Origin: Terriglobia bacterium
GTDB lineage: Bacteria > Acidobacteriota > Terriglobia > UBA7540
Assembly (NCBI GenBank): GCA_020072925.1
Contig: JAIQGA010000054.1
Location: 1 to 34,999 of the forward strand
DNA length: 34,999 bases
Direction: 5' to 3'
The first letter of the stretch is position 1. Every line of letters begins with the position of its first letter. The translations under genes and the position numbers were made by a program. The notes below the pieces were generated by a model that saw only the letters and a list, made by a program, of their open reading frames with translations, had not been told where the DNA came from and ran no database searches. Of this stretch, positions 1,524 through 29,130 are shown piece by piece.

Positions 1524-6080
<4,557 letters not shown>

Positions 6081-10288: not shown

Positions 10289-10372
10289 TTCCGCGAACTG
10301 CCTTGAATCGGCATTTTCGGTGCGAATCGCCGGTGACAGGACAGGACGGGGACGACCCACGGTTCGTGAAAG

Positions 10373-10421: not shown

Positions 10422-10505
10422 GCAGCGCTTCGAGCGGTTTTCGATTCCCGACTTTCGATTGGCGATTTTCGCGCCGCGTTCATGTGGTTTCTCACCGGTT
10501 GCTTT

Positions 10506-10540
10506 CTTACTGCTTACTGCCTTCTGCCGCCTGCCTACCT
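10506..10540. repeat. Heptamer array, CYTACTG type, inverse of the 10214 array
   Basis: Five 7-bp units: CTTACTG, CTTACTG, CCTTCTG, CCGCCTG and CCTACCT. Read on the minus strand these are CAGTAAG-type units, so together with 10214-10248 they form an inverted pair about 260 bp apart, just downstream of the beta-barrel gene. Confidence 0.85.
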
Positions 10541-10563
10541 CCGGTTGCTTGCCGCACCGGCCA

Positions 10564-12426: not shown

Positions 12427-12441
12427 ATCAGCTCCCCCGAG

Positions 12442-13485: not shown

Positions 13486-13534
13486 CCAATTCCTTATTCA
13501 CCCCGTAACCCGAATTTCAGTTCGGCCGGGAATA

Positions 13535-13562
13535 ACAGGGGGAGTAGATACACTCCCCCTGT
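13535..13562. terminator. Strong hairpin behind the tetraheme cytochrome gene
   Basis: A perfect 11-bp stem (ACAGGGGGAGT/ACTCCCCCTGT) with a 6-nt loop begins 16 bases after the stop codon at 13579 on the minus strand. No U-tract follows on either strand, so it is more likely an mRNA-stabilising or attenuating structure than a simple intrinsic terminator. It could raise tetraheme mRNA relative to the downstream genes. Confidence 0.65.
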
Positions 13563-13578
13563 ATTAATGAACTACAGA

Positions 13579-14475
13579 CTAGATCGTCGGCACGCTCATC
13601 AAGCCGTGCATTTCGTTCGACTCGCCACCATGGCAATTGCGGCAGAACTGTGCCACGGAGTTGCCGTTGCTGTTGGGGTTGTAGTAGCCACGAATGAAGA
13701 ACATGGTTGAATAACTGCCCTTTGAATTGGTGTAGGCGGTCATGCTGTGCTGATCATGGCAAGTGGTGCACGTCACCGCGTTCACCGTCGTGCCACCAAA
13801 GCTGGCCAGCGGGTTTTTGGCTGCGCCAGAGCTGTTGACGTTATTCCAGAACGAGCCGGGATAGTTGGCCAGGAACGCCTGCGAAGCGGTGCCACTCATG
13901 GAGATGGGAGTGGTAGTGCTGCCGCCTCCGGTGCAGTCCCAGTTGTAGGTGCCCCCACAACCGACGACCGCATACCCGCCCACCGGGTGGTCGTTGCTGT
14001 AGGCTGTGCCGCCGGAGGGAGCCGCTTTGGCGAGGAGCGTCGGAGCGGTTCCGCCCACGATCGGCAAGGTCTCAACGGTTTGCCCTTGCATCATGCCGGC
14101 GTTCGTCAACACGCCGTCATGGCAGCTCAGGCAGAAGAGGATGATGGTGTTGGCGTCATGGGCGCTGGTGAGGCCACCTGAAGCAGGAAGCGTGACCGAG
14201 TAGGTTGCCTTGCCGTCGCCGCTGAAGCTGAAGGTCTTGCCATACAAGGGTGTAAGGTCCTGGCCCCATAGAGCGTACGCGCCGTTCTGGGGATCGGTGC
14301 TCGTGGCAACGCCGTTGCCAAGAGAGCCGCTATGCGGAGCATGGCACATGACGCAGCCACGGCCGTAGCCGTTGTGCGCGCCCAGAACGTCCGCACCACC
14401 TTTGTAGGTGACCTGGGCCATAGCCACACTCGTGGCGGCAAGGACCACAAGGACTAAGAGCGCAAATTTCTTCAT
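13579..14475 (-). CDS. Secreted tetraheme c-type cytochrome, OmcE-like (candidate nanowire subunit)
   Basis: 298 residues, signal peptide 1-20 (cleavage after AMA). CXXCH motifs lie at 41-45, 115-119, 236-240 and 278-282. His34, His48, His106, His163 (NDHPVGG), His243 and His290 are candidate distal ligands. The order GAHNGYGRGCVMCHAPHSG, CLSCHDGV, DHPVGG, CTTCHDQH, C-terminal CRNCH matches what I recall of OmcE-type filament cytochromes of Geobacter, which stack into extracellular wires. Two extra cysteines (173 and 181) in a Gly-rich insert could form a disulfide. The gene has a strong AGGAGG site and is followed by a stable hairpin, which suggests high expression. Filament formation is inferred from family resemblance and neighbours, not proven. 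Confidence 0.85.
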   Translation of the reverse strand: MKKFALLVLVVLAATSVAMAQVTYKGGADVLGAHNGYGRGCVMCHAPHSGSLGNGVATSTDPQNGAYALWGQDLTPLYGKTFSFSGDGKATYSVTLPASGGLTSAHDANTIILFCLSCHDGVLTNAGMMQGQTVETLPIVGGTAPTLLAKAAPSGGTAYSNDHPVGGYAVVGCGGTYNWDCTGGGSTTTPISMSGTASQAFLANYPGSFWNNVNSSGAAKNPLASFGGTTVNAVTCTTCHDQHSMTAYTNSKGSYSTMFFIRGYYNPNSNGNSVAQFCRNCHGGESNEMHGLMSVPTI

Positions 14476-14543
14476 ATTTGTAGAAAACCTCCTAATGAAT
14501 TCTTACCTTCACTACGCCGCTTCGGGCTCCGGCCCAAAACAGC

Positions 14544-14569
14544 TTTTGGCTCTCCGGAGATAGCCAAAA
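14544..14569 (-). terminator. Possible terminator or processing hairpin between NHL and tetraheme genes
   Basis: An 8-bp stem (TTTTGGCT/AGCCAAAA) encloses a CTCCGGAG palindrome, and GCTGTTTT follows on the minus strand, 13 bases after the NHL stop. The U-run is short, so termination would be partial. No clear promoter fits between it and the tetraheme gene. Confidence 0.45.
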
Positions 14570-14581
14570 CTTGTCGCGGCG

Positions 14582-15892
14582 CTATGGCGCCGCAGAATCT
14601 CTCTTTGCCGCGAGGTCTGGCTTGGCTGCCGACGGGTCAGCGGCCGACCGCTTCTGTTCCGACGGTATACCGGCGGACTTCGCGTCGACCCCTTCGCGGC
14701 GCGCCTTCTCCGCGGCGGCTTCGGAGTCGGTCACGTATCGAAATACCTGGATTCGGCCGGGAAACGTCTCAGAAACAATCACCCGATTGAGTCGGTCGAT
14801 GGCGATTCCCCATGGCCCCATAAACTGGCCCGGGTAATTCCCCTGGCCACCAAAGTAAATGAGGAGTCGGCCTTGCTTATCGAAAACCTTCACCTTGTTC
14901 TGCGCCGCGTCCACTACCCAAACGTGGCCGTCGCAATCAACGGCAATACCTTTGGGCCGCTCGAGATCCGCAGGCCCGTCGCCGTCCTTTCCGAAGGTGC
15001 CAACATTCGCGCCGTCGGCGTCGAAAATCTCTACACGGTTGTTGAAGGTGTCGGTGACGTAGACATTCAGGTCCCGGTCCACGGCCACACCCTCCGGAAG
15101 GGAAAAGGTTCCCGGATCGGTCTGCTCGTGCTTCCGGCTGGGTTTCCCGATCTGGCGTAACAGCTTCAACTTGTCGGCGTCGAAGACGTCCACGACATCG
15201 TTGCCGGTGTCGACCACATAGAGAAACCGATTCTCACGATCAATGGCGATACCGCCCGGGCGAACCAGCACATCCGCCCCGAACACGGCTTCCTGCTCGT
15301 GCTTTGCGTTGAACACTACGATGTGGTGCAGCTTGGCGTCTGAAACAAAGAGGCGATCATCGTCGTCCAGCGCCAAGCCCACAATCGCGCGAAAGTTCGC
15401 CTGGCGTCCGTTGCCGATCAGCTCGACGTGTTCTTTGTCCTGCGGATCGAAGACAAAAACCGCGCCCACGCCCTGGTCTGCCGCATAGATCTTCCCCTTT
15501 GAATCGACCGCCACGCCGTACGTCTGGATCAACTGGAAGGGGAGGTTGTCGAGTTTGATCTGGTCAGCGGGCTGCGTTCCGGCAAGGCGGTCCATCCAGG
15601 TCTGCCGGCGTGTCTTCTTCTTGGTATAGAGGCTGGGATCGATTTTTTGCCCCGTGAAGAGATCCTGGAAGGCAATCCGCGTAATTGCCGGCGGGTTCGG
15701 CCATACGATTTTGCTGAGGTCGAAATAAGCTGTCACCCTCTGCTCACTCAGATTCATCGCCGGAGCGACGGCTTGGGATCTCTTCTTGCCTGCATGGAGC
15801 GGCGTCGGCATAACCGACGGGAGTGCGGACAAGCCAAGGGTTGCGGCTGTGAATATCCACCGCCGAATCGAGCCCGTTTCACGCTTCGCCAT
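14582..15892 (-). CDS. Secreted NHL-repeat beta-propeller protein
   Basis: 436 residues from the ATG at 15892, chosen because GGAGG lies eight bases upstream and the start follows the upstream stop within a few bases (TGAGATG). A signal peptide (IFTAATLGLSALPSV to LHA) is followed from about residue 110 by NHL blades such as GVAVDSKGKIYAADQG, GIAIDRENRFLYVVDTGN and GVAVDRDLNVYVTDTFNNRV. It ends in an Ala/Lys-rich tail. It resembles the second NHL protein at 9182-10288 in architecture. It is likely periplasmic or surface-exposed and probably acts as a scaffold for cytochrome export or assembly; no catalytic residues are evident. Confidence 0.9.
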   Translation of the reverse strand: MAKRETGSIRRWIFTAATLGLSALPSVMPTPLHAGKKRSQAVAPAMNLSEQRVTAYFDLSKIVWPNPPAITRIAFQDLFTGQKIDPSLYTKKKTRRQTWMDRLAGTQPADQIKLDNLPFQLIQTYGVAVDSKGKIYAADQGVGAVFVFDPQDKEHVELIGNGRQANFRAIVGLALDDDDRLFVSDAKLHHIVVFNAKHEQEAVFGADVLVRPGGIAIDRENRFLYVVDTGNDVVDVFDADKLKLLRQIGKPSRKHEQTDPGTFSLPEGVAVDRDLNVYVTDTFNNRVEIFDADGANVGTFGKDGDGPADLERPKGIAVDCDGHVWVVDAAQNKVKVFDKQGRLLIYFGGQGNYPGQFMGPWGIAIDRLNRVIVSETFPGRIQVFRYVTDSEAAAEKARREGVDAKSAGIPSEQKRSAADPSAAKPDLAAKRDSAAP

Positions 15893-15893
15893 C

Positions 15894-17324
15894 TCAGTTG
15901 CCTCCAACCCGTACATCTAAGAGGTTCAGGCCATTGATGTGGCAGGAATTGCAGAAGTTCATATCGTCTTTTTGGTTCTTTACCAACATACCCTGCTTGG
16001 TTCCGGCGTGAGGCTGATGACAGCTCAAACAGTTCATCGCAATCGGGGTCTTGGTTTTGGGGTTCATCACGTCCGAAACCGGGTGGGCTTTCGTCGGGTG
16101 CCCCAGGCCATATTGCAGGGGCAGGATGGGCACGTTGCGGAAGTAGGCCTCTGGTAGCTTTACTTCCCCGTTGAAGATGGTAACCATTTGTGTGCCGCTC
16201 AGCTTCTCGGGCCTGGCGTCGGGGCCGTGACACTCCAGGCATAGTGAATTGGCGTTGTTGGCTCGCAAGAGATGAGTGTTTGCTCCCCCGTGCGGTTCGT
16301 GGCAGGCGGCGCATCCCCATTCGAAGGCGGGCTTGTGCGCGTGAGCCTCCTTACCCTGTTCGGCCTGGTCGGAATGACAGTTCAGGCAGGCCGCGACCGG
16401 GTCCGGTTGCAGTAACCCGGGCGTTTTCCCCCCGTGCGGGTTGTGGCAGTCAGTGCAATCACCTTGCGCGCCCGGGTGCTGCACTTTTGCCGTCTCAATC
16501 TTCTTCGCCTCGTCCTCGTGACACATCACGCACTGCGACTTGGCGTTCGCCTGCGTCAGTACGACTTTTCCATCCTTTGCCGGCGCATGACATACGTCGC
16601 AGGTCTTGTCCGCAAAGGGCGGGTGGAGAAACTTCTGCATGAGCATCGGTGCCGCCGACTGATGCGGATCGTGGCAAGCGAGACAATCGGCTTTAGCGAT
16701 GGGCTGATTTTGGTGCGCCTTGAGGAGGGCTTCGTCCTTCAGGTCGTGACAGTCGAGGCACAGTGCGGGGGCGTCCTTGGTCAAGTGGTAGGCGAATTCG
16801 CGTTTTGTGGGGTCACCTGTCTTATGCGGGACGTGGCACGTCTCGCAACCCATATCGAGTGCGGGATGCCGACTGCCTCCTTTGGGAACGTCGAGGCCTT
16901 CGTTGTGGCAGGACAGGCAGAGGTTCTCCTGCTTTGTTGCCCCCGAAGTCGGCTTCAATAGCTGGTCCTTGTTTGCCGATTTGTGTGGATCATGGCATTC
17001 GAGGCATTGGCGGGCGGCCGGGCTGTGGACCTTCCCTTTGATATCGGAGGCTTTCTTATCGGCGTGACAACTGAGGCAGAGGCTTTGAGGTGTGGCGGCG
17101 GTCAGTTTCACTCGGGTAATGTCCCTGGTCACCCGAACCTCGTGGCAACTCAGGCATCCACTCGCCATCGCTGAGTGAACCGACTTGCCTTTCGCTTCGT
17201 CCGCATGGCACTCCAGGCACGTGGCCCCGTCGGTCTTTCCATTCAACGGAACGGCGTGCTTGGCGGCACGTGCGCCCGAGACCGTCAAGCCTATCAATAG
17301 CGAGAAGATCAGGGCCCTTTTCAT
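15894..17324 (-). CDS. Secreted 16-heme c-type cytochrome
   Basis: 476 residues with a signal peptide (LIFSLLIGLTVSGARA) and sixteen CXXCH motifs spread over residues 35-460, many followed by DPH, NPH or EPH in the doubled-CXXCH style. Repeats such as CLECH...VHS...GCLSCH suggest internal duplication, and the N-terminal third parallels the 6-heme protein encoded just upstream. It is predicted to be a periplasmic or outer-membrane-associated electron conduit. Its ATG overlaps the TGA of the preceding gene (ATGA), so the two cytochromes are translationally coupled. Confidence 0.93.
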   Translation of the reverse strand: MKRALIFSLLIGLTVSGARAAKHAVPLNGKTDGATCLECHADEAKGKSVHSAMASGCLSCHEVRVTRDITRVKLTAATPQSLCLSCHADKKASDIKGKVHSPAARQCLECHDPHKSANKDQLLKPTSGATKQENLCLSCHNEGLDVPKGGSRHPALDMGCETCHVPHKTGDPTKREFAYHLTKDAPALCLDCHDLKDEALLKAHQNQPIAKADCLACHDPHQSAAPMLMQKFLHPPFADKTCDVCHAPAKDGKVVLTQANAKSQCVMCHEDEAKKIETAKVQHPGAQGDCTDCHNPHGGKTPGLLQPDPVAACLNCHSDQAEQGKEAHAHKPAFEWGCAACHEPHGGANTHLLRANNANSLCLECHGPDARPEKLSGTQMVTIFNGEVKLPEAYFRNVPILPLQYGLGHPTKAHPVSDVMNPKTKTPIAMNCLSCHQPHAGTKQGMLVKNQKDDMNFCNSCHINGLNLLDVRVGGN

Positions 17325-18697: not shown

Positions 18698-18745
18698 CAG
18701 TACGGAAGTGCATGCGGGCTGGTGTTCGCCCAGGACTTCAAATCC
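18686..18745 (+). repeat. Left attachment repeat with orphan 5' half of tRNA-Sec
   Basis: 60 bp repeated directly at 29018-29077 with three mismatches, all in the first 17 bases. Positions 18703-18745 are a perfect 43-bp copy. From GGAAG at 18704 it covers acceptor 5' strand, D-arm, anticodon loop and part of the anticodon 3' stem of tRNA-Sec, then diverges (GACATT). It marks the left end of the integrated element. The truncated tRNA cannot function. Confidence 0.93.
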
Positions 18746-19016
18746 GACATTTACTTTTGCACGGTTTAGTACGATGGTGGAAGTGATTGCAAATTAATGG
18801 TCCGTACACTTCTATACTAAGCCATCCAAACGACCACTCACTACAGTTTTCGCTACATCGCGCACTTTTGGAAAAGCGTGTTGCAGCCATTCTACGGTTC
18901 ATTGGGCGTCTGACAGTCTGAGAAGCGCTCCCAGGGCGGTCCCGCGCGCGCGAAGGCCATTCTACGACGACGCGGGATGTATCCTTAACGGCTTTCTGTC
19001 TGCAGGACCTTCTGGG
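18746..19016. other. Left-end non-coding stretch of the element
   Basis: About 270 bases between the left attachment repeat and the stop codon of the 335-residue gene. No gene, clear hairpin or repeat was seen. It may hold integrase arm-binding sites, but no repeated motif supports this. Confidence 0.4.
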
Positions 19017-20024
19017 TCATTTCGACTGGGTCGCTGATTCGCCGGCAACACCCTGCGGTGTACCCGCAGCACCATTGTCAGGGGTTTTGGACAGCGCGTA
19101 AAACACTCGCTGCGCCGTTGTCCTGGCGACGCCCGTATCCAGCGATATCTCCCTCCAGGAGCGGCCTGCCGCCTTCAGTTGCGCTATCCTTTGCGGGTCT
19201 GGGATGACTCGCGGCGGGTCCGGCTGCGAGTTGCGGAGAGCATTGATGCGGCCCCTTTCTCGAACGTAACACCTTGCACAGCACATGTTCCCGCCATATC
19301 CAGCATCTTTTTTCCCGCAGCAGAAACAACCCCACTTGGCGAAATAGCGCGAACAGAGGTCACGGTCCTCAGAGGTCTGGTGCCTCCTGATCTCGTTTGC
19401 CCTTGCCCGTTGGCGGAACCAGCTGCCGAAGCCTAGATCCTCGGGGTCTGCGAGAACCTCCGCGACGCGTTGGTCCACGAGTTCCTTGATACGGTCGTCG
19501 GGTGTTTGAGCCGGTCGAATGCTCTGCGTCGTTTCGTGCGCTATTTCTTTGCGGATTCCTCGGGCGGGCTTCAATGTCGGAGAGCGTTTGACTGGCAATT
19601 TCAGGGCTAACTCAGCAAGCTCTTTGAGTACGAGATGTTGAATGCGGCTTTCAGCCATTTCCAAAATCACGGTGACCATCTCGGTGGTAAGTAGCTTCTG
19701 TCGGCGAATGTGCCCATCTCGAGCCGTCTGAGTCGTGGCCGCGCGCTCCGCTTCCCGCTGGTCAACTATTAACTCAGCTAGCTCGAAGAATTTCTTCCTG
19801 GCTGCCAAGCGACATTCGGAAGCGTGGCCCAGCTGTTGCAGGGCAAACTCCCCAAGCCTATCGTCGCTCGCCGTCGCGAGGTAGTCGATTAAGCCGCTTG
19901 CATCAGTTGTCGGGCAATTGAAATAACGCAGGGTGATGGATTGGACGGGAGACCTGGAGTCTCCAAGCGATTGAGGATTGTAAGTTTCAAGGGAGTTTTC
20001 TTCTGGTATCTTGGGGTCAGCCAT
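19017..20024 (-). CDS. Element protein with Cys-rich zinc-binding motif and C-terminal HTH, function unknown
   Basis: 335 residues, ATG with AAGGAG upstream. The middle is helical and charged. Around residues 235-260 a Cys cluster (CFCCG...MCCARC) looks like a zinc ribbon. Residues 275-310 (RIAQLKAAGRSWREISLDTG, then VARTTAQRVF) form a helix-turn-helix like that at the end of serine recombinases, but no catalytic recombinase domain is present. It is probably a DNA-binding protein. It has its own strong promoter and a leader of about 70 bases, unlike the genes upstream. It is the leftmost gene of the element, where satellites often carry accessory or control genes. The family is not recognised. 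Confidence 0.75.
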   Translation of the reverse strand: MADPKIPEENSLETYNPQSLGDSRSPVQSITLRYFNCPTTDASGLIDYLATASDDRLGEFALQQLGHASECRLAARKKFFELAELIVDQREAERAATTQTARDGHIRRQKLLTTEMVTVILEMAESRIQHLVLKELAELALKLPVKRSPTLKPARGIRKEIAHETTQSIRPAQTPDDRIKELVDQRVAEVLADPEDLGFGSWFRQRARANEIRRHQTSEDRDLCSRYFAKWGCFCCGKKDAGYGGNMCCARCYVRERGRINALRNSQPDPPRVIPDPQRIAQLKAAGRSWREISLDTGVARTTAQRVFYALSKTPDNGAAGTPQGVAGESATQSK

Positions 20025-20098
20025 ATTCGCGCTCCTTCGTAGCGTGGGTGTGGTCAGGGCGCGGTGGGAGCTTTCACCTCCTGCCGTGCCCGCTTTTC

Positions 20099-20127
20099 TT
20101 TATATGCCCTGTCTCGGTGTTTGTCAA
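20099..20127 (-). promoter_or_regulatory. Sigma70-type promoter of the 335-residue gene
   Basis: On the minus strand TTGACA at 20127-20122, a 17-bp spacer, then TATAAA at 20104-20099. It is near consensus and would give a leader of about 70 bases before the ATG at 20024. Confidence 0.75.
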
Positions 20128-20324
20128 TCCGATTCAGAAACGGTACGCGCCAGCGTGTGAGAGGCTGCAAGAGCGCGTTTAGAAAGGCTCAGGATGATTT
20201 GCGAGCAGTGGGCCTATGCGATCAGTCGCAGCGTTCAGAAAGGGGGCTTTCTCCGGGGCCTGACAAGTTGTTGATTCCACACAGGGCAGAAATGGCAAAG
20301 AGGGCAGTTCAGAAACGGAACGAT
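20128..20324. other. Non-coding stretch within the element
   Basis: Between the promoter of the 335-residue gene and the end of the small membrane-protein gene. No gene, terminator or repeat was recognised. Confidence 0.4.
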
Positions 20325-20594
20325 TTATAAACGAGTCTGGGAGTTGGCAGCGCTGCGCGCCGCCTCTGGCGTGGGATGGCGTGAATATCTTGGACTGGAA
20401 ATCTCCCCCTTGAACGCGACAAACCTCATCAAGCTGTAGTCTTTGGTTGCGGTCAAAAGTACTCCGCTCAACAGAGGGTCAAGATTGGTCAGCCCAAGTT
20501 CGCGTGCCCACGGTAAGCAAAGCAGGGCGCTCAGAGCCGTTATCTTCGCCGCAGCCGATCCAATCGCTGCGAAAAGCCTCATGCTGAACCGCAT
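20325..20594 (-). CDS. Small membrane or secreted protein of the element, unknown
   Basis: 89 residues. The ATG is preceded by GAGAGGA at good spacing. Residues 7-30 (LFAAIGSAAAKITALSALLC) are hydrophobic after a basic start, a signal anchor or signal peptide; a second mildly hydrophobic stretch lies at 38-50. The tail is polar and basic. No family was recognised. It lies 70 bp behind another single-span membrane protein, so the two could work together at the membrane. Confidence 0.55.
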   Translation of the reverse strand: MRFSMRLFAAIGSAAAKITALSALLCLPWARELGLTNLDPLLSGVLLTATKDYSLMRFVAFKGEISSPRYSRHPTPEAARSAANSQTRL

Positions 20595-20666
20595 GGCTGT
20601 CCTCTCTTTTGTGAGTCCTTAACCCAGTAGAGTTTGCCTGGGGAAGACCATCTCCAGTTTTCGCGC

Positions 20667-21242
20667 TCACAAGTCGCTTACGAACCTCCAGGCAAAATAC
20701 GCTCCCACCGCGACCCCGCCGATAATGAGGAGATCAGCAATCGTATTCAGAACCTTTGTCCAATCGGTTGCCGGGGTCTGCACGTTTCCTCCACCGCCAA
20801 GAGCATTCGCGATGAGGTTGGCAGCCGAAGGTCCGGTTCCCTGAAAGGTGTTCGATATATCCGCAAGCGTGCTTCCCGTGGACTGACCCTGAACGGTGGC
20901 AACCTGTACGGCCATCTGCGAATTTGCTTTGTTGATCTGACTCGCCAAAAACTGAGGGTCAGTAACTTGTCCTGTGTTGGGGTCAGTCATGCCTCGCGTC
21001 AAATCGGCTGCGTTCGCGGCCTGCAATTCCTTGAGCTGCTGAGGAGAAATCGTTCCATGGTTGATGGCGTAGGTTAAATTGGGGTCTCCGGAGATCAATG
21101 CCCAAGCGGTGTCGCCAAGCCCAGACAAGAAATCCCACCAGCCGTAGTTTGGAAGAAAATCTCCTACACCGCGCACGCCGCGCGACGGCAAAACCTCCAC
21201 AGACAGTGGCCGTCTACCAGGAAAGGGCCGTAGTTTTTGCAT
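20667..21242 (-). CDS. Element protein with C-terminal transmembrane helix, unknown
   Basis: 191 residues, ATG with AAGGAG eight bases upstream. A basic N-terminus (PFPGRRP) is followed by a Trp-rich segment (NYGWWDFLSGLGDTAWALIS), an Ala/Gln/Asn-rich middle that is probably helical, a Gly-rich patch (ALGGGGNV) and a single transmembrane helix at about 165-188 (LLIIGGVAVGAYFAWRFV). Gly-rich low-complexity plus one C-terminal span recalls virion or spanin-like membrane proteins, but nothing specific was recognised. The neighbours are unknown element genes on the same strand. Confidence 0.65.
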   Translation of the reverse strand: MQKLRPFPGRRPLSVEVLPSRGVRGVGDFLPNYGWWDFLSGLGDTAWALISGDPNLTYAINHGTISPQQLKELQAANAADLTRGMTDPNTGQVTDPQFLASQINKANSQMAVQVATVQGQSTGSTLADISNTFQGTGPSAANLIANALGGGGNVQTPATDWTKVLNTIADLLIIGGVAVGAYFAWRFVSDL

Positions 21243-21277
21243 GGTTGCTGCTCCTTCTCTTGGCAGTATTCGGCGGC

Positions 21278-21664
21278 TTAATTGAAGACTTCCCCTGTCG
21301 CTTTGTCGATAATGAACGCCTTGACGGGCAGCTTTTTGCGGCCGGTGCCGCTCCTAACCTGGTAAGTACGGCCGGCAACGTCGAATTCCCAATATTCCTT
21401 ACCCTTGCCGAATGAGAAAAGCCCCCCGCCGCGGGTGATGAGCTTGGCTTTGCCAATCGAGCTTTGCCTGGCGTTCTTCAAACGCAAGCGCTCGCCGTCA
21501 GGGTTCAAGAGCTTCACGTCGCGGAGGTGCTCAGCAACAAACCTTCGAATCTTCGAAACCGCGTCTTCTCGAGAGTTTGCGAACACTCGTAGCTTTGCCA
21601 CGGGTTCGCGGCCCTCGCTCGGATTCTCATGGGGCCGATAGAAGTTTGCGTATACGAATGGCAT
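21278..21664 (-). CDS. Element hypothetical protein, 128 residues
   Basis: The ATG is preceded by a strong AGGAGGT site. The sequence is basic and predicted beta-rich, with aromatic strands (YWEFDVAGRTYQV) and a closing KAFIIDKATGEVF turn. No family was recognised. It is the first of a run of well-initiated minus-strand genes leading into the membrane proteins, with only 35 bp before the next gene, so an operon is likely. Confidence 0.7.
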   Translation of the reverse strand: MPFVYANFYRPHENPSEGREPVAKLRVFANSREDAVSKIRRFVAEHLRDVKLLNPDGERLRLKNARQSSIGKAKLITRGGGLFSFGKGKEYWEFDVAGRTYQVRSGTGRKKLPVKAFIIDKATGEVFN

Positions 21665-21848
21665 GTACTACCTCCTAACCGGAGATTCAGCCCAAAATGT
21701 TCTAGGCCCCCGCTCCGCAGTAATCAAGGAGCAGCAAGCGTATGAAGTTCCCAAGAGCACGCCCGGTCGGGCTTTTGCCTGATCGTCGTGCTCTTTGGGA
21801 GATGAGTCGCCTGGCTTCGCGCCGTGGCCAGCGAGAAGGCTGACTCCC

Positions 21849-22217
21849 TTAGTCGGTTTCGGCTGGCTCTGGCTCTGGCTCTTCTTCCTCGGGCAGAAGT
21901 TCTTGCATTTCCTTGAGCTTCGCGATGACCTCTTCCCTCGACAATTCAGCATCAAGCGCTTCATCGACGAGGCTAGCAATGTCATCCAAAGTTTCTTGAG
22001 AGTCTTGAAGTTCCTGTTCGACTTTTGACCTTCGAGTGGGCATGGTTCGGCTCCTTGAGGGTGGATTTGCGATTTGGATGTGCCGATGAGCGGCATACTC
22101 GTCAACTGTTTCATCCTCGATCTGGCGCGCGAGCTCTGGGTCATTAAGAACATCCTCGGCAAACTGGACGGCCTTTTCTTTTCGGCTTTTGACCTGCTCG
22201 CGCGTGAATTTCTTCAT
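21849..22217 (-). CDS. Small charged protein with an internal in-frame start
   Basis: 122 residues from the ATG at 22217. The first 52 residues are helical and acidic/basic (RKEKAVQFAEDVLNDPELA), and the later part is a predicted coiled coil ending in a Glu/Pro-rich tail. The ATG at 22217 has no clear Shine-Dalgarno. An in-frame ATG at 22043 has AAGGAG seven bases upstream and would give a 64-residue C-terminal product. It could be one protein with an internal start or two genes fused by loss of a stop. I recall similar small proteins from mobile elements but cannot name a function. Confidence 0.65.
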   Translation of the reverse strand: MKKFTREQVKSRKEKAVQFAEDVLNDPELARQIEDETVDEYAAHRHIQIANPPSRSRTMPTRRSKVEQELQDSQETLDDIASLVDEALDAELSREEVIAKLKEMQELLPEEEEPEPEPAETD

Positions 22218-22320
22218 CGCGTGGGCAGCTTAAGCCAGCCCGAGGTATGTGCGTCAAAGGAAATAAACCCCTGTGTACGGGGAAAAAACCTGAGCGGCCA
22301 AATGCTGGAATCTGCGTAAG

Positions 22321-22878
22321 TTAGGCCTTTGGAAAATGATGGCGATTGGACTGTTCGGAGATTTTTTTCGGTCGCACCCCGAGACCGCGTCTGGCGTGAA
22401 GTGCCTTTCTCAAATTTTCGGATTGGTGCTTTTTTTCTTCCATAGTCAAAGTGACGAACCCTGGAATGCACGCTGGGCAAACACGGTGCTCAAAAATGTA
22501 TTCCCAATAGTCACTTGGGTCGGACTGCCTCATCTTCTCGGGTTTCATTTCCTCTGAAAATATCGAGAGGGCCTTGTCGATTCGAGGTTCTTTGGGACGG
22601 CCCCCACGGTGCAAGGAGCGCCGAAGGATCTTCGCAACCTGCGGACGTGCTCCGCCGGCGATTCTTCTTTTGATTTTCTCCGATTCTCGGTTGACCAGGT
22701 GTACAAGCCCAAGCCAGGCTTTGCGCCTGACTCCGATTAAATCGCGTCTGGTGGCAGCTTGGAGTTTTTGCGAAGAGGGGCTATATAGAAGGAGACGCAA
22801 TGACCGCCTTCCGATCGGACCCAGCTCGGCGAAAAGGCATTGAGCGGCGAGAAACAAGCCCTCAGGGTCACAACGCAA
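22321..22878 (-). CDS. Element hypothetical protein with a C-terminal Cys pair, start uncertain
   Basis: An open frame of up to 185 residues. The only upstream start is a TTG at 22878 without a good ribosome-binding site, and the first internal Met is more than 100 residues in, so the start or even the frame may be wrong near the 5' end. The overlapping frame 22737-22949 has an ATG (22934) and could be joined by a frameshift. The middle is strongly basic (SEKIKRRIAGGARPQVAKIL); the end has CPACIPGF and a basic tail. It is possibly a nucleic-acid-binding protein; no family was recognised. Confidence 0.45.
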   Translation of the reverse strand: MRCDPEGLFLAAQCLFAELGPIGRRSLRLLLYSPSSQKLQAATRRDLIGVRRKAWLGLVHLVNRESEKIKRRIAGGARPQVAKILRRSLHRGGRPKEPRIDKALSIFSEEMKPEKMRQSDPSDYWEYIFEHRVCPACIPGFVTLTMEEKKHQSENLRKALHARRGLGVRPKKISEQSNRHHFPKA

Positions 22879-23046
22879 GTAATTAGTTGCCCGAACATCT
22901 CACCGGAACATCCAAATTGTTCTGCGCTCATTTCGCGTTTCCAAAACAAATGTGCGAAAACCTAGAAAAATGCGAAAACTCCTGCATCTTCAGGGTTGCA
23001 AAACCTTGAAAAAGACAGCACGCCGAACATTGAAAAACGACGCAGC

Positions 23047-23754
23047 TCAGCATCCACGGCTCGCTTTTACGAAAAGGAATGTGATCTTGTCGGCATCTCT
23101 GGTTAGTGTGTCCAAGATTTTCTGGGACACGATCTCCCGCATCGCAGGTTCTTCAAAAGGTTCGTGCTGAGGGACCTCGGAGATTAGGGCTTCCCTCACT
23201 CTTTGCATTTCCTCTGGGGGCAGGTATCCACTCACCAAAGAAATTCCGTACGCGAGCCATCGCGACCGAAACTGGGCAACCTGCCTTTCTGCTCGCTTCC
23301 CAGCCTTCTGCTTGGCGTTCTCAGCTTTCAAGGTTTCGCGTTGAAGCTTCAGTTTTTCTTTTTCGAGCAATATCGCTTCGCGCTGCGAGTCAGCCTCATC
23401 GCGTCTGGCGTGTGCTTCAGCCTCTTGTTCGTCGTTCAATTTGGCAATTTCCCGCTGCTGCGCCATGATCTGCCTCTGCAGCTGAAGGCGTTTGAGTTCT
23501 TCCTCCTTCTCGCGTAAACCAGAAGAGTCAAGTCGCTCGCCTCGATCGGCTACACGCCGTGTGCTTTCGGGCGCAATCCGAACATGACCGCCGGGTGTGC
23601 GGAAATAGTCGAGCTCGCCGGCGGTAACCATCCTTCGTACCGTGGGAGGCGACACTCCAAGCAAAGCGGCAGCCTGGCTGACAGAGAGAGAAGCGCCCGG
23701 AGGTTTATCCGGTGAGGTTTTTCTTGAAACGGGCCGTTTCCTCTTTTTTTTCAC
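23047..23754 (-). CDS. Excisionase/MerR-like HTH protein with long coiled coil
   Basis: 235 residues from a GTG at 23754 with GGGAG eight bases upstream. After a Lys/Arg-rich start, residues 22-65 form a MerR/excisionase-type winged HTH (SVSQAAALLGVSPPTVRRMV and YFRTPGGHVRI). Residues 80-155 are a charged coiled coil rich in Glu, Lys and Gln. The C-terminal 80 residues are globular and unrecognised. The gene starts 30 bp from the iteron dyad, so it may bind there as an initiator, a partition-like factor or a repressor. This role is inferred from position only. Confidence 0.8.
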   Translation of the reverse strand: MKKKRKRPVSRKTSPDKPPGASLSVSQAAALLGVSPPTVRRMVTAGELDYFRTPGGHVRIAPESTRRVADRGERLDSSGLREKEEELKRLQLQRQIMAQQREIAKLNDEQEAEAHARRDEADSQREAILLEKEKLKLQRETLKAENAKQKAGKRAERQVAQFRSRWLAYGISLVSGYLPPEEMQRVREALISEVPQHEPFEEPAMREIVSQKILDTLTRDADKITFLFVKASRGC

Positions 23755-23783
23755 CTTAGCGGCTCCCCCATCTCTTTTTTTGC

Positions 23784-24019
23784 GGGGACACCGGGGACAC
23801 TGGGGACACTATCTCCCAATGCGTTGACTTCGCTGCGGTTGTAGCTTTTGAGGTTTGTCCCCGGTCGCTGTTTTGCACCGGGGACAAGCGGGGACAAAAC
23901 CCTATTTTGTCCCCGGTGTCCCCGGTGCCATTTCCCGCAGTGGGGACAAGTCCTGAAACGCGAAGTGCACGGCCTTTCAATGGGTTATGAATATTGTCCC
24001 CGCTGTCCCCGCTGTCCCC
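23784..24019. repeat. Twelve-heptamer symmetric dyad, candidate replication origin
   Basis: GGGGACA starts at 23784, 23793, 23802, 23880, 23890 and 23942; its complement TGTCCCC starts at 23856, 23908, 23917, 23995, 24004 and 24013. Tandem units are mostly 9 bp apart, about one helical turn. The order is three forward, one reverse, two forward, two reverse, one forward, three reverse, symmetric about 23901-23902. It lies between the primase-helicase stop and the HTH/coiled-coil gene and has the features of an iteron-type origin. Confidence 0.85.
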
Positions 24020-24044
24020 ACCTGAAAATGTTATGCCGTGCATT

Positions 24045-26531
24045 TCAAGTCTCCAAAATGGCTGATTTAATTGCATAGACGCGGGTCTTTTCGACTTCCG
24101 GCAGACGGACTTGTAGAGTCAGACGTCCGGCGTCGCAGACTAAGAACCCGCGATCTGCTAGCGTGTGGGCTACCATCTGATAGTCGAAGCCATTACAGAC
24201 TTCGCCCTTGAATACTTCGGACAACACCAAGTACTCTGTCTCGCCCTGAGGGTTCTCACGTTTGAATCCAGCCCGATTTACCACCCGCTCTGGAATTTCC
24301 TGGCCAATGCCTGTGCGACGCGGGAGAACCGATTGGAATCGACTCGCACCGTGCGCCTCAATGAAGGCCCGGACTTGCCGTACTCCAGCTTCACTGTCGG
24401 CCAAACCAATTGTTCCGCGAGCTTCAATCCATTCGACGAGACAACACGATGCGGCATTCTTCGCTTCGCCTCGTTGCCAACCTGTGAGTCCGATGTCGGT
24501 CGCCAATTCGCCGGCTGCTGCTGCCAGTGCGAACCGGCCGGCCGCTCGCCTCACTTCCCCCGAGGAAGATGGCGGCAAATTGCCAGCCAAGAACTCGGTG
24601 CGGAAATTGCCAATTCGATCCTCAACCCCTGGTCGGTTGCCAGTCACGTACTCAAGGAATCGTCGGATCGGCTTCCCGTAAAACATCTTACTGGCATCGC
24701 GCAAATGGCGTGAAAGCGCTTCACTGCTTTCAAACCCATGTAAATCTTCGAAAATACCCATCTGCGCTCCAGCATCAGCAGAAATATTAACTAATCGGAT
24801 ATCGGCGCCCGCACGTGTATGTTTCCCGCCTGATTCAGAGTGTTGGCTAAGCGTAATCTCTCCCGAAGAAATAAACAGTGTGGTCCAGCTGAGACGTTGC
24901 CGCAGGCCCAGTGTCTTTGTCATTCTTTGCTTGCCCTGACCATTCGCGAGCAAGTACAAGCTCTCAGTCGCCTCACGGGAGTCGAGTTGAGAAATCTCAT
25001 CCAAGCAGCCAAGGGAATCATTGTGCAGGTCCCCAAAGGCTTCTAAGCCATTGACGGTGGTCCGCCAAGACTCCACAAAGCCATTGCGACCGCCCCCGCC
25101 CCACACCGAGCCGGCAACCAGCAATGCCGTGGTCTTCCCAGTCGAACTTGTACCGTGGAGGTGAAAACCTCCGGAATCATCTTTTGAGAGTCGAAGTAAT
25201 GGTGCTGCAAAGGCGCATGAGACGAGAAAGACCAAACGCGAATTGCCAGAGCAGAGTTGACCCACATTTTTCGTCCACTCATCTAGAGACCCGCACTCAT
25301 TGAAAAAGTGCTGTGTGTCCAGCGGCGACTGAAAAACGAGTCCTTGGTCGTTGGGGCTTAGTCCAATCGTGGAATCAGGAAACACGAACACGCGATCATG
25401 CCAGCCTAACCTGGAAACGCAACGATACTCGTCGCCTGCCCCTGCCAAGAGCGCCATCGGCATTGCCCAGAAATGCTCCCGCTCACCGTCGGACCATTTC
25501 AATAAGCGGCCCCATCCTTCTCCCTGGTCATTCCTGGTTGCGGCAACGATCTCCAGCGGCGAGCATATACGGATTGGTTCGTTGTCCGCATTCGGGTCCG
25601 TGTAGTACACCCCATCATCGACAACGCGAAACCGTGTCGCATCGGCGTGTGGTATGGCCTTGCGGGATTCACTGCATTCGTTCGGCAAAAACCGCTTGCT
25701 CCATTCCGCCAGTCGGCGAGTGTCCAGACTTGGGGCCTGAGAAATGAGTTCCTCAATCTTCTCGCGTGTCCCACCCATCATTTCCCAGTCGCATACATCG
25801 CCCTTCGGGGGAAGGTTTGGCAGTTCAAGTATTCGAACTGAACCAGCCACCGGAAGGAGATTTTGAGCTATCGAAAGCGCATGGCGCATTCCTGCTTCGT
25901 CATTGTCCGGCAAGATCACGCTCTCGCGGGTTTTGAAGTAAACGGAAAATTCGGATAGCCACTTACCCGCTCCTTCGGAATTGCACGTCGCCGCATATCC
26001 CCAGCTCTTCAGTAGCTCAGCCTTCTTTTCGCCCTCGGAAATCAAGACCCGCTGAGCTTTCATCAGGTCGGGAAGGTGATAGGGAACGCGGTGCGCGTCG
26101 CCCAAACCTTTAACCCACTTCCCCTGATCCCCCGGATGTTCTATGACGAAACTTTTTCCAGAGGATGATTCGATGCGCAGTACCCGGTACACTGGCCGGC
26201 CATTCCCGTTTTCATATACAAAGGTTCCGGTGACTTCGCGCTTTGGTTTCGTAGGCAACGGGCGACCGACTATTCTGAATACTGAATCGAGCGCGTCTCG
26301 AAACCGAAGGTTGGATAACTCCATTTCCAGTCCAATCAAACCCCCTCCGCGTGCGCATTTTGAATGGCAGTACCATCTGCCCGTTGCAGGTTCAACCGAG
26401 AAAGAATCGCGCTGCCCTTGATGTATCGGGCAAGGTCCGCGGAGTTCCTTGCCCATGTGCTTGAGCCTCGGGACTCGGTTCTTGAAATAGCGCGTGATCT
26501 CACCACCCGAGAATTCCACCGCTCTACTCAA
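24045..26531 (-). CDS. Primase-helicase with CHC2 zinc finger, Toprim and DUF927-like ATPase
   Basis: 828 residues from a TTG at 26531, chosen because GGAGG lies five bases upstream and the TTG overlaps the TGA of the preceding gene; the longer frame to 26687 has no such support. Residues 34-60 hold a CHC2-type zinc finger (CPIH...WYCHSKC) as in DnaG-like primases. A Toprim domain follows (LISEGEKKAELL, ILPDNDEAG). The C-terminal half is a DUF927/superfamily 3-like ATPase with Walker A GTSSTGKTT and Walker B-like LGCLDEIS. It should prime and unwind DNA at the element origin, and the putative iteron dyad lies 25 bp beyond its stop codon. All key motifs are intact. Confidence 0.92.
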   Translation of the reverse strand: MSRAVEFSGGEITRYFKNRVPRLKHMGKELRGPCPIHQGQRDSFSVEPATGRWYCHSKCARGGGLIGLEMELSNLRFRDALDSVFRIVGRPLPTKPKREVTGTFVYENGNGRPVYRVLRIESSSGKSFVIEHPGDQGKWVKGLGDAHRVPYHLPDLMKAQRVLISEGEKKAELLKSWGYAATCNSEGAGKWLSEFSVYFKTRESVILPDNDEAGMRHALSIAQNLLPVAGSVRILELPNLPPKGDVCDWEMMGGTREKIEELISQAPSLDTRRLAEWSKRFLPNECSESRKAIPHADATRFRVVDDGVYYTDPNADNEPIRICSPLEIVAATRNDQGEGWGRLLKWSDGEREHFWAMPMALLAGAGDEYRCVSRLGWHDRVFVFPDSTIGLSPNDQGLVFQSPLDTQHFFNECGSLDEWTKNVGQLCSGNSRLVFLVSCAFAAPLLRLSKDDSGGFHLHGTSSTGKTTALLVAGSVWGGGGRNGFVESWRTTVNGLEAFGDLHNDSLGCLDEISQLDSREATESLYLLANGQGKQRMTKTLGLRQRLSWTTLFISSGEITLSQHSESGGKHTRAGADIRLVNISADAGAQMGIFEDLHGFESSEALSRHLRDASKMFYGKPIRRFLEYVTGNRPGVEDRIGNFRTEFLAGNLPPSSSGEVRRAAGRFALAAAAGELATDIGLTGWQRGEAKNAASCCLVEWIEARGTIGLADSEAGVRQVRAFIEAHGASRFQSVLPRRTGIGQEIPERVVNRAGFKRENPQGETEYLVLSEVFKGEVCNGFDYQMVAHTLADRGFLVCDAGRLTLQVRLPEVEKTRVYAIKSAILET

Positions 26532-26869
26532 TTTCGCCTCCGCAAGTAGAGCATCGCGAAAATATAGTGATGTTGCAACGCGCGCACATAATAGGCGAGG
26601 AATGAAGGCACCACATCGGCAAGCCTGGCGACTGTGAAGCGGCGCCCTCGGAATTCGAGAATCGCGAGGGCAATCATTCTGTGCCACTCGTCGCAGAAAT
26701 CTTCCGGCTTAAGATCCCCGAGGGCTTCCGGTGTGCCAAAAGCAATGGCAGCACCAAGGAGCAACCTTTCGGTTTCGAGAGCGGTTACGCCCTCATCATG
26801 GGGTCGCGAAACTTGTAACAAGCGAGGATGTCTGATAGGATGGTTTTCCATACCGAATCCCGAAAGCAT
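26528..26869 (-). CDS. Stand-alone DnaB N-terminal-domain-like protein
   Basis: 113 residues from the ATG at 26869, or 107 from the ATG at 26851. The segment PHDEGVTALETERLLLGAAI resembles the PHxEEAE...LLGA opening of replicative helicase DnaB, and the rest is helical (DFCDEWHRMIALAILEF). No ATPase domain follows; the ATPase is in the next gene, whose start overlaps this stop codon. It may act as a primase- or helicase-loading subunit. An 8-bp hairpin (GGCGACGC/GCGTCGCC, 26875-26896) sits just ahead of the first ATG and could limit translation. Confidence 0.72.
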   Translation of the reverse strand: MLSGFGMENHPIRHPRLLQVSRPHDEGVTALETERLLLGAAIAFGTPEALGDLKPEDFCDEWHRMIALAILEFRGRRFTVARLADVVPSFLAYYVRALQHHYIFAMLYLRRRN

Positions 26870-26930
26870 TTCCAGGCGACGCTGGCCGGCGTCGCCCTTT
26901 CGCTTTTTGCCGACGCGATGCTCGCGGGAG

Positions 26931-27128
26931 CTATTTGCGCCTCTTCTTCGCGCCAGGACCGTTCATTCCTTCGCTTACCAATCTTCGAAGGGCCTCGGGA
27001 GTCACGCAGACACGCCGGCCGAGCCGTACAGGCACAAGTTTGCCCTGTGCGATCCATTTTCTGAGAGTCCACGGAGAGAGACTCACCGTAGCGGCTGCTT
27101 CAGCTATGCTCAGTGCAATCTTTTCCAT
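26931..27128 (-). CDS. Excisionase-like (Xis/AlpA-type) HTH protein
   Basis: 65 residues, ATG with AAGGAG upstream. It is almost entirely one MerR-like winged HTH: LSIAEAAATVSLSPWTLRKW, then GKLVPVRLGRRVCVTPEAL, followed by a Lys/Arg tail. Proteins of this size next to tyrosine integrases act as recombination directionality factors or as repressors. It is transcribed away from the integrase operon from a promoter that overlaps the integrase-operon promoter, so it is well placed to control that switch. Confidence 0.88.
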   Translation of the reverse strand: MEKIALSIAEAAATVSLSPWTLRKWIAQGKLVPVRLGRRVCVTPEALRRLVSEGMNGPGAKKRRK

Positions 27129-27149
27129 ATTGGGTCTCCTTCGACACTC

Positions 27150-27177
27150 ATAGTACTTGACAATCCTTTTCAGTCAA
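27150..27177 (-). promoter_or_regulatory. Promoter of the Xis-like gene (overlaps the divergent promoter)
   Basis: Minus strand TTGACT at 27177-27172, a 16-bp spacer, TACTAT at 27155-27150. It lies wholly within or against the plus-strand promoter at 27157-27185, so RNA polymerase can occupy only one at a time. Confidence 0.7.
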
Positions 27178-27185
27178 AATACAAT
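27157..27185 (+). promoter_or_regulatory. Promoter of the integrase operon, probably leaderless
   Basis: TTGACA at 27157-27162, a 17-bp spacer, TACAAT at 27180-27185. The first ATG (27192) is seven bases past the -10 box, about where transcription should begin, and no Shine-Dalgarno is present, so the first message is probably leaderless. Confidence 0.8.
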
Positions 27186-27191
27186 GTTGGT

Positions 27192-27845
27192 ATGGCTAAA
27201 CGACTAAGGCATGTGTCACGTGAATACTTCGGCGAACGAGAAGCGCATGACATCATCGAGTGGATGAACGAATTTGGAAGCACGCGCCGTGGTCGGCCTG
27301 TCCTGAGGCTCTGGGAAGCATACAACCGCTACGTGCAGTTCCTGCTTACCAATGTCCAGGAAGTCCGCGCCGTCATCGGGAAAGAGATTGGCGTGCGTCC
27401 TGAAGTTTCCCCGGTGCTTGACCGCAAGGCGGAACAGCACTTTAGGCAGCTCGACGAGAGAGAGAATCGGGAATTTCGCCGAAAGGCGGCAAAGGCCTGG
27501 GAACAATGCCACGCGACTGCCACAGAGGAGCATTTTGCTTTCGAGTTTCTTCGACGGATCACCCCTCAACACCTATTAGTCCCCAAGCCGAGACAAGCGT
27601 TGGAACGAAAGACGGCAGGTCAGGCAGCTTTTGAGCTGTATGTTCTGAGTCATCAACCTGCATTTCACAAAATCCGGCAGTGTCAAACCTGCCGAAGATT
27701 CTTCTATGCCCGTTTCAAGCACAAGAAGTTCTGCTCGGTGAAATGCCAGCAGAAGTATTACAAGCAAAGTCCAGAATGGAAGGCTTATCGGGCCGGTTGG
27801 ATGAGGACACACCGCGTTATACTGAAAACTAAGAACGTGAAATGA
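27192..27845 (+). CDS. Zinc-finger protein encoded ahead of the integrase
   Basis: 217 residues from the ATG at 27192; the open frame extends back to 26634, but that part is antisense to other genes and upstream of the promoter. The C-terminal 60 residues contain a treble-clef-like zinc motif (CQTCRRFFYARFKHKKFCSV, then KC), similar to CGNR-type fingers, followed by a basic Tyr/Lys/Arg tail. The N-terminal part is helical. It is probably a DNA-binding regulator or an accessory recombination protein. It is followed after eight bases by the integrase start, so the two are co-transcribed. Confidence 0.8.
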   Translation: MAKRLRHVSREYFGEREAHDIIEWMNEFGSTRRGRPVLRLWEAYNRYVQFLLTNVQEVRAVIGKEIGVRPEVSPVLDRKAEQHFRQLDERENREFRRKAAKAWEQCHATATEEHFAFEFLRRITPQHLLVPKPRQALERKTAGQAAFELYVLSHQPAFHKIRQCQTCRRFFYARFKHKKFCSVKCQQKYYKQSPEWKAYRAGWMRTHRVILKTKNVK

Positions 27846-27853
27846 GGTGAACC

Positions 27854-29026
27854 GTGGCAATCTACCCAAGAGGTAATTGGCTCTGGACTAACTTCTATTT
27901 TGAGAAGAAACACATTCAGGAGAATACACAGGTCCGTGTCGGCAAGAGGCCGAAAGCCAAACAGCAAAACTACAAGCGGGCTGTCGCCTACGAAGAACGT
28001 CGCAAGAATGAGTTGCGCGACCCCTCGTTGGTGAAGGTGAAACGTGAGCGCCCGCCTACTCTGCAAAGCTTCAAGGAGCGTTTCATCAAATCGGTAGAGA
28101 CACGTCTTGCTGACAAGCCCCTGACCATTGAATTCTACAAGTCTAAACTCCAAAACCTTCTGCGATTTACTCCCCTTGCCGAAACCCGACTTGACCAGAT
28201 CGACGAGGGCATGATCGAAAGCTACGTCCAGCACCGCCAGAAGGTTGTCAGGGTCGCATCGGTCAACCGCGAGCTGGCGACGCTCCGCAAGGCGCTAAGA
28301 CTGGCGCAGGATTGGAAACTTATTGACCGCGTTCCGCGAATTCGGTTGCTGCGGGGCGAGCGGGTCCGCGAGTTTGTCTTGAGTGATGCTCAGGAGCAGC
28401 TCTATCTGGACGCCGCTCCTCAGCCTTTGCATGACGTTGCCCTTCTGGGACTCGACACCGGGATGCGGCCCGGTGAAGAACTCGCCCTCAAGTGGGGCGA
28501 GGTGCACTTTGAGCCAGCCAGAGGAGCGAGGCTTGGGTACATCCACGTGAAAGACGGCAAGACTCGGAATGCGAAGCGAAACCTTAGTCTGACTCCGCGC
28601 GTGCGGAGCATGCTCGAAAGCGCAGAGGTACGAAAGACTTCGGTATGGGTCTTTACGAATGAGACAGGTGCAGGGCCTCTATCACGGTTTAGGCTGCGTG
28701 ACCAGCATGATGCGGTTCGGCAGGCACTCAACCTGCCGCAGGAATTCGTCGTCTACTGCCTGAGGCATACCTTCGGAACCCGGCTGGGTGAGTCAGGCGC
28801 CGATGCCTTTACGATTATGAAGATCATGGGCCACAGCAGCGTGACGGTTTCTCAGCGGTACGTACATCCGACGCCCGAGACCCTGGAGAGAGCTTTCGAA
28901 CGGCTCGAAGAGCGGAACCAAAGAGCAGCCGCTAAGCTCTTAGAAGAGCAGAAACGGCTGCTACCCGCTACAGTTTCTACTACAGTGGAAGACGTGGAAG
29001 TTGATACTGAACTAGAAGTCGCTTAG
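27854..29026 (+). CDS. Tyrosine recombinase (integrase) of the tRNA-Sec element
   Basis: 390 residues, GTG start with GAGGTGA upstream. A basic arm-binding N-terminus (1-65) is followed by a core-binding domain (about 70-165) and a catalytic domain (170-345). Arg205 (TGMRPGEE), Lys236, Arg304 (YCLRHTFGT), His327 (MGHSSV) and nucleophile Tyr336 (RYVHP) are present. The His of the usual HxxR box is Tyr301, a variant seen in other phage-type integrases. An acidic C-terminal tail (VEDVEVDTELEVA) is encoded by DNA that also forms the selC promoter, and the TAG stop opens the -10 box. It should integrate the element at the tRNA-Sec anticodon arm. Confidence 0.95.
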   Translation: MAIYPRGNWLWTNFYFEKKHIQENTQVRVGKRPKAKQQNYKRAVAYEERRKNELRDPSLVKVKRERPPTLQSFKERFIKSVETRLADKPLTIEFYKSKLQNLLRFTPLAETRLDQIDEGMIESYVQHRQKVVRVASVNRELATLRKALRLAQDWKLIDRVPRIRLLRGERVREFVLSDAQEQLYLDAAPQPLHDVALLGLDTGMRPGEELALKWGEVHFEPARGARLGYIHVKDGKTRNAKRNLSLTPRVRSMLESAEVRKTSVWVFTNETGAGPLSRFRLRDQHDAVRQALNLPQEFVVYCLRHTFGTRLGESGADAFTIMKIMGHSSVTVSQRYVHPTPETLERAFERLEERNQRAAAKLLEEQKRLLPATVSTTVEDVEVDTELEVA

Positions 29027-29029
29027 AAT
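29001..29029 (+). promoter_or_regulatory. selC: Element-supplied promoter for tRNA-Sec, inside the integrase gene end
   Basis: TTGATA at 29001-29006, a 17-bp spacer, TAGAAT at 29024-29029, seven bases before the tRNA. It mirrors the orphaned host promoter at 18669-18697 in spacing and in the -10 region. The integrase stop TAG (29024-29026) forms the first half of the -10 box. Confidence 0.78.
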
Positions 29030-29077
29030 GAGTGCGGAAGTGCATGCGGGCTGGTGTTCGCCCAGGACTTCAAATCC
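29018..29077 (+). repeat. Right attachment repeat within tRNA-Sec and its promoter
   Basis: Direct repeat of 18686-18745 with three mismatches; 29035-29077 is a perfect 43-bp match. The identity ends inside the 3' strand of the anticodon stem, placing the crossover in the anticodon arm or upstream of it. Confidence 0.93.
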
Positions 29078-29130
29078 TGTGGTCCCGACTTTGTCGGGAC
29101 GGTCGGTTCGATTCCGACACACTTCCGCCA
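29036..29130 (+). tRNA. selC: tRNA-Sec (anticodon UCA)
   Basis: 95 nt including an encoded CCA. The acceptor GGAAGTG pairs with CACTTCC. The anticodon stem CAGGA/TCCTG holds loop CTTCAAA with anticodon TCA at 29070-29072. A long variable arm with an 8-bp stem (GTCCCGAC/GTCGGGAC, 82-89 and 93-100 past 29000) and a 3-nt loop, and a T-arm GTCGG/CCGAC, are diagnostic of selenocysteine tRNA. Its 5' half was delivered by the mobile element and its 3' half is host DNA. It inserts Sec at UGA codons with SelB. No selenoprotein gene is visible in the window. Confidence 0.96.

Follow-up and report, generated by a model that had tools for sequence, protein, structure and literature searches.

It is not yet settled how self-loading hexameric helicases recognise double-stranded DNA and open it. 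In a contig from a Terriglobia bacterium, an array of short repeats lies beside a gene for a primase-helicase, and this raises the question of what the array is for. The window, by which we mean the whole 34,999-nt stretch of DNA analysed here, contains twelve copies of the heptamer GGGGACA or its complement TGTCCCC. An exact scan places all of them within 23784-24019 and none outside, against a mean of 4.5 and a maximum of 10 copies in shuffled versions of the window. Read strand by strand, their order is +++−++−−+−−− (3F-1R-2F followed by 2R-1F-3R), with offsets of 0, 9, 18, 72, 96, 106, 124, 133, 158, 211, 220 and 229. The starts of mirrored box pairs sum to 47797 or 47798, so that the two-fold symmetry holds to 1 bp around 23901.5. 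The scan thus agrees with a preliminary description of this DNA, which had reported twelve heptamers in the order 3-1-2-2-1-3, symmetric around 23901-23902. The tandem spacing of 9 bp given there applies to all tandem boxes but a single pair, 23880/23890, which is 10 bp apart. When gaps and orientations were permuted, all twelve boxes were mirrored in only 2 of 20,000 trials.

Single heptamers are scattered over the genome (666 copies in 6.5 Mb on 456 contigs, about one per 10 kb). The tandem form GGGGACANNGGGGACA has no second exact occurrence in the genome, and only two further places appear when one mismatch is allowed. We could rule out the heptamer as a genome-wide signal, since the exact tandem form is found only at the dyad; the array is confined to this one locus. 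The dyad itself contains no strong AT-rich region. Its 60-bp windows have 50-62% GC, the lowest value nearby being 37% at 24020-24079, and its longer spacers have 46-61% GC; the two sets of boxes surround a centre of 11 bp with 27% GC. The features of the locus are collected in Table 1.

Table 1. The mirrored array, the neighbouring genes and the element that carries them (positions in the window)
Feature	Position	Strand	Basis
Integrated element; 10,332 bp from one repeat to the next, midpoint 23890	18703-29077		43-bp repeat; integrase, primase-helicase and HTH genes inside
attL, copy of the tRNA-Sec 5' half through the anticodon	18703-18745	+	43-bp perfect direct repeat
HTH_17/excisionase-like DNA-binding protein, directly beyond the dyad	23047-23754	-	HTH_17 8.6e-11; TIGR01764 excise 1e-10
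Outer iteron triplet, left half, 3 x GGGGACA, 9-bp spacing	23784-23808	+	Exact scan
Single opposed iteron, left half	23856-23862	-	Exact scan
Inner iteron doublet, left half, 10-bp spacing	23880-23896	+	Exact scan
A/T-rich dyad centre, 11 bp, 27% GC, candidate opening point	23897-23907		Base composition
Inner iteron doublet, right half	23908-23923	-	Exact scan
Single opposed iteron, right half	23942-23948	+	Exact scan
Outer iteron triplet, right half	23995-24019	-	Exact scan
Primase-helicase, 828 aa, proposed origin-binding initiator; start could be upstream at 26687	24045-26531	-	Pfam, AlphaFold
Tyrosine integrase, adjoins tRNA-Sec	27854-29026	+	Phage_integrase 2.7e-19
Promoter-like TTGATA-17-TAGAAT, 3' end of int, placed for tRNA-Sec	29001-29029	+	Consensus match only
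attR, same 43 bp, 5' half of the intact tRNA-Sec gene 29036-29130	29035-29077	+	43-bp perfect direct repeat

The neighbouring protein carries, in this order, a CHC2 zinc finger, a TOPRIM-type primase region, a DUF927 helicase and a C-terminal winged-helix-like domain. Pfam returned DUF927 (PF06048) with E 2.8e-64 and 218 bits against a cut-off of 22.6, Zn_ribbon_DnaG with 1.4e-9, and a weak match to HTH_56 (Cch). An AlphaFold model of residues 300-828, computed with 26 relatives, reached a pLDDT of 85.1 and a pTM of 0.78. Two structures match the model best, 5dgk of SCCmec Cch with Z 30.3 and 8tch of SaPIbov1 Rep with Z 27.6; the next one has Z 14.1. These alignments span model residues 1-525 and 1-529 and include the C-terminal DNA-binding part, and a sequence search of the PDB again ranked the same two proteins first. 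In SaPIs the C-terminal domain of Rep binds iterons directly downstream of its own gene, apparently as two hexamers, and the isolated C-terminal domain of Cch2 binds iterons specifically (PMC7581432). Because the initiator folds as Cch and SaPIbov1 Rep do, and the origin of SaPI Rep lies directly downstream of the gene, the 236-bp dyad is most likely the replication origin of a 10.3-kb integrated mobile element. As in the PICI/SCC type, the short repeats stand immediately 3' of the initiator gene, the first box about 28 bp beyond its last sense codon, and this position recurs in relatives. The protein of the window lacks 34 residues in the N-terminal part of DUF927, after residue 370 (about position 25425), that are retained by almost every aligned relative with coverage there, and the AlphaFold confidence falls at this gap. 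The gap is either an in-frame deletion or an assembly error, and this copy of the helicase may be impaired or decaying.

If the dyad is an origin of this helicase family, arrays should follow the gene in its relatives. A scan of genomes and viral contigs, anchored on the protein, yielded 37 loci, the window included and some of them near-duplicates. At least six copies of one 7-mer occur in the 300 bp past the helicase stop at 22 of these 37 loci, compared with 7 of 1071 control windows elsewhere in the same loci, and some of the seven are second half-origins. The closest relative (G028, loci L079 and L094) is about 65% identical overall, belongs to a different genus and is integrated at tRNA-Glu. 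It has twelve GGGAACA boxes in the order of the window, position 4 being changed in all twelve, at offsets of 0, 9, 18, 70, 95, 104, 122, 131, 156, 209, 218 and 227. The preliminary description had regarded a relative with the same primase and no dyad as evidence against its reading; the closest one keeps all twelve boxes. The same order, with 12 of 12 boxes mirrored, is found in Legionella rubrilucens (L104, GTGGGGC) and in a Desulfarculaceae genome (L112, GGGTAAC, one box with one mismatch). Decayed versions occur in a betaproteobacterium (GTGGGAC), a Paracoccus (CGTAAGG) and a viral contig (TGTGGGGCA), and a shorter mirrored form at L095 (G038). The loci L097, L116 and L123 are among those whose mirrored arrays, with other words, are full or nearly so. 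At L123 the first triplet, TGTGGGGCA, lies within the end of the helicase reading frame and is translated as the protein tail ACGACGACG. Full two-fold symmetry had been called unusual before; it recurs at DUF927 initiator origins in several phyla.

A later protein-only search of 396 genomes of the phylum added ten places. At L133 and L138 the array follows the helicase gene immediately, with ten GTGGACA boxes, all mirrored to the base pair, at the former and thirteen GGGAACA boxes, ten of them mirrored, at the latter. Arrays of weaker symmetry are present at L136, L137 and L139, those of L136 and L139 not being significant, and at the other five places the exact 7-mer method found none. Relatives without an array by exact 7-mer search include L105, L106, L122, L134 and L135. 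DUF927 initiator homologues also occur on circular plasmids. The loci L143, L145 and L149, annotated plasmids and a satellite-size phage, have mirrored or related arrays: the arrays of the circular 14.6-kb plasmid III of Legionella fallonii, which has genes for a DUF927 protein and an integrase, and of the 16.8-kb Pseudomonas phage phiAH14b agree, and Skermanella pSR-7 has an inside-out array with the triplets inward. Such inside-out origins (−−+−−− then +++−++) are mirrored in 10 of 12 boxes at L145 and 10 of 11 at L096. In E. coli, GGTGGAAC boxes lie downstream of a TOPRIM-DUF927 gene that neighbours a gene for phage polarity suppression.

GGGGACA triplets in 41 viral contigs were not used as proof, many single triplets overlapping long open reading frames; a detectable relative of the primase-helicase is present only in L038, L050, L061, L067 and L076. 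The viral contigs L071, L058, L061 and L050 combine GGGGACA arrays with initiators of VapE-like, DUF5906 and RepA-like ATPase (MarR-like end) types, which suggests that the word is common to unrelated primase-helicases. Because some neighbours are other initiator classes, GGGGACA alone is not diagnostic of DUF927. Low-identity primase-anchored matches of the same class (L011-L037), most of which align in the primase part alone, have no GGGGACA array.

Across the arrays compared here, the repeating unit reads as a six-box half, 3-1-2. Many Alphaproteobacteria have only this half (2R-1F-3R) after the helicase gene. A second copy in the same direction follows 1.4-1.9 kb further on at L111 and L115, and L114 has the distant copy alone. 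In Desulfovibrio sp. OH1186_COT-070 (L110) a complete +++−++ half (TGTCGGAC) at 4370-4455 forms an in-frame insertion within the coding sequence of the helicase; its mirror half follows the gene at a distance of 1.4 kb. Since some relatives have no array and many Alphaproteobacteria only a six-box half, these comparisons indicate that twelve boxes are not required across the whole helicase family, and half-origins seem to suffice in some lineages. The gaps between the single box and the triplet fall into classes of 30-36, 43-46 and 52-54 bp. They follow a period of 10.5 bp, about one helical turn, with R 0.67, a strength reached in 5 of 20,000 uniform draws, for gaps that were assigned by hand and rows that are not fully independent. 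The helicase tree gives no direction of change, and the mirrored layout probably is old and predates the element in the window, because full layouts are present in both deep, well-supported clades. No recent inverted duplication need therefore be assumed for the two halves.

These features can be combined into one mechanism. Each heptamer would be an iteron for the C-terminal winged-helix-like domain of the primase-helicase from the adjacent gene, with one box per subunit. One half (3F-1R-2F, six boxes) would position one hexamer of an MCM-like self-loading helicase, and the mirrored half would seat a second hexamer facing the opposite way. The pair would open the short A/T-rich centre or flanking DNA, and the helicases would be loaded in, and leave toward, opposite directions. 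The fused DnaG-type primase domain would then start synthesis, leading to bidirectional copying of the excised circle. The bidirectional initiation considered in the preliminary description would fit this scheme. Taken as a whole, this explanation, with an integrative, satellite-like element as its carrier, appears highly probable to us. Against it stand the lack of a strong AT-rich block in the dyad, the 34 missing helicase residues, and the relatives with half an array or none. The iteron origin beside the primase-helicase, as the preliminary description had read the locus, is strongly supported by the fold, the position and the conserved arrays of relatives. We judge this class of origin to be real, almost certainly functional, and related to the SaPI/SCC type.

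An origin might also work with unequal halves, one recruiting the hexamer (ori) and the other serving for control or handcuffing, as happens in bipartite systems; firing would then be unidirectional. Phage P4 has separate ori and crr iteron sets, and the lone 2R-1F-3R halves, the same-direction copies at L111 and L115, the distant copy at L114 and the mirrored copy inside the L110 helicase gene all fit such a division. Near-perfect mirroring is kept in several distant lineages, though, and equal roles explain this more simply; we regard unequal halves as unlikely, if still the most serious competitor of those considered. The dyad could instead be an operator or partition-type site of the HTH_17/excisionase-like protein, used in gene control, segregation or excision. 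Repeats next to the gene of a DNA-binding protein are what operators and parS-like sites typically look like. Here the dyad is followed directly by the HTH gene, and in the closest relative, too, an HTH_17-like gene occupies this place. But the array tracks the helicase gene across relatives, and at L143 and L149 the gene downstream of it is annotated just as hypothetical. The dyad region has no promoter-like site, ParA/ParB were not recognised among the proteins scanned, and the array is distant from att. We consider an operator or partition role improbable.

Hairpin-based initiation, which the preliminary description had suggested, would make an extruded or single-stranded long stem the signal, for primosome assembly or nicking. 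The 254-nt dyad strand does fold well beyond its shuffles (z -9.4), but strong folding follows from the inverted boxes alone. With the boxes fixed, spacers pair better than shuffled ones in the window (z -3.6), where the weak flank similarity noted earlier is in part borne out, in L094 (-2.4) and in L116 (-5.9, some of its boxes not being fixed), but not in L104 (-0.7), L112 (-1.2) and L097 (-0.7). Since several members show no spacer pairing beyond chance, the conserved feature is the box geometry rather than a hairpin stem. In several relatives a lone half has no mirrored counterpart in its vicinity, the initiator belongs to the MCM-like helicases, and a nicking-type Rep was not seen. A hairpin signal is therefore very improbable, even more so than an operator.

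The origin reading with two opposed hexamers can be compared with known systems. A SaPIbov1-type PICI replicon shares with the window the initiator fold, the place of the origin directly 3' of the gene for the initiator, two sets of short iterons and an integrative element. It differs in that primase and helicase are fused in the window and no clear AT-rich block separates the window's sets. The published description of SaPIbov1 gives two iteron sets around an AT-rich region and mentions no 3-1-2/2-1-3 mirror, but part of the mirrored layout may already be known for this one element. An analogy with origin-recognising helicases has been drawn for SaPI Rep (PMC7581432). SCCmec Cch is the best structural match and shares DUF927 and, weakly, the HTH_56 domain; in contrast, the characterised SCC origin is that of Cch2, with a different helicase family and AAGTG direct repeats, and no Ccr recombinase was found at the element in the window. 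The alpha protein of phage P4 is a fusion of primase and helicase, as is the protein here; the P4 protein recognises short iterons of the GG..ACA type in either orientation, but it belongs to the D5/SF3-type helicases, and the P4 ori and crr are separated. At the SV40 large T and papilloma E1 origins inverted recognition sites seat two opposed hexamers, as proposed here, whereas their DNA-binding domains are unrelated and at the other protein end, the sites are fewer and the systems are viral. An iteron plasmid origin (RepA/Rep with DnaA help), which has iterons in direct repeat and a winged-helix Rep lacking helicase activity, was rejected, the initiator here being a primase-helicase and the boxes lying in both orientations.

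Our literature search found no paper on mirrored origins of DUF927 initiators, though this says little about their absence, and none on DUF927 initiator origins outside SaPI/PICI and SCC elements. In the literature reached, a mirrored grammar with exchanged words across phyla appears undescribed. A mirrored 2 x 6 layout common to several phyla, with the word changing in concert, offers a testable rule of recognition and opening, and origins of unannotated satellites and plasmids could be found from the helicase gene alone. Matched initiator-iteron pairs might even make a recognition code readable. Around the start of the predicted C-terminal helix (784-793; 485-494 in the crop) the window and L095, both with GGACA words, have DYQMVA; the corresponding residues are DAQAVA in L133 (GTGGACA) and DVRSVA in L094 (GGGAACA), even though no other protein is more closely related to that of the window than the L094 one. 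We only hypothesise that these residues track the iteron word, three against one. A general grammar for bacterial MCM-like self-loading helicases would have one iteron per subunit, six per hexamer and two mirrored sets for opposed hexamers, with iteron word and C-terminal recognition helix changing together while the geometry stays fixed. We offer it tentatively, at somewhat less than even chances. If true, replicon families would not respond to each other's origins, and bacteria would offer a simple model of how a double hexamer opens an origin.

The midpoint of the element lies 12 bp from the dyad centre, and in the related G028 element of 10,381 bp the dyad is 85 bp from the midpoint; since the two elements are homologous, this position is not independent evidence. 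With its 43-bp tRNA-Sec repeat and tyrosine integrase the element has the specific attachment site and integrase of a PICI. It is not classed as one: Pfam and PHROGs recognised no PICI phage-interference, terS or capsid-remodelling genes among the proteins scanned, nor packaging or regulation genes of PICIs in the element, and gave a weak terminase-small match on the HTH protein. The gene at 19017-20024, at the far end of the element, shares 53% identity with the gene in the corresponding position of G028 (L079 17529-18344). tRNA-Sec carries the element on its 5' side, where the element's own identical copy has replaced the 5' half of the gene. The displaced native half at 18703 retains an upstream TTGACC-17-TAAAAT. 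A promoter-like site within int precedes the intact tRNA-Sec, and therefore expression of this tRNA may depend on the element. At 7128-17324, a cluster of host genes for multihaem c-type cytochromes, NHL-repeat proteins and a PPIC-type isomerase resembles an extracellular electron transfer locus.
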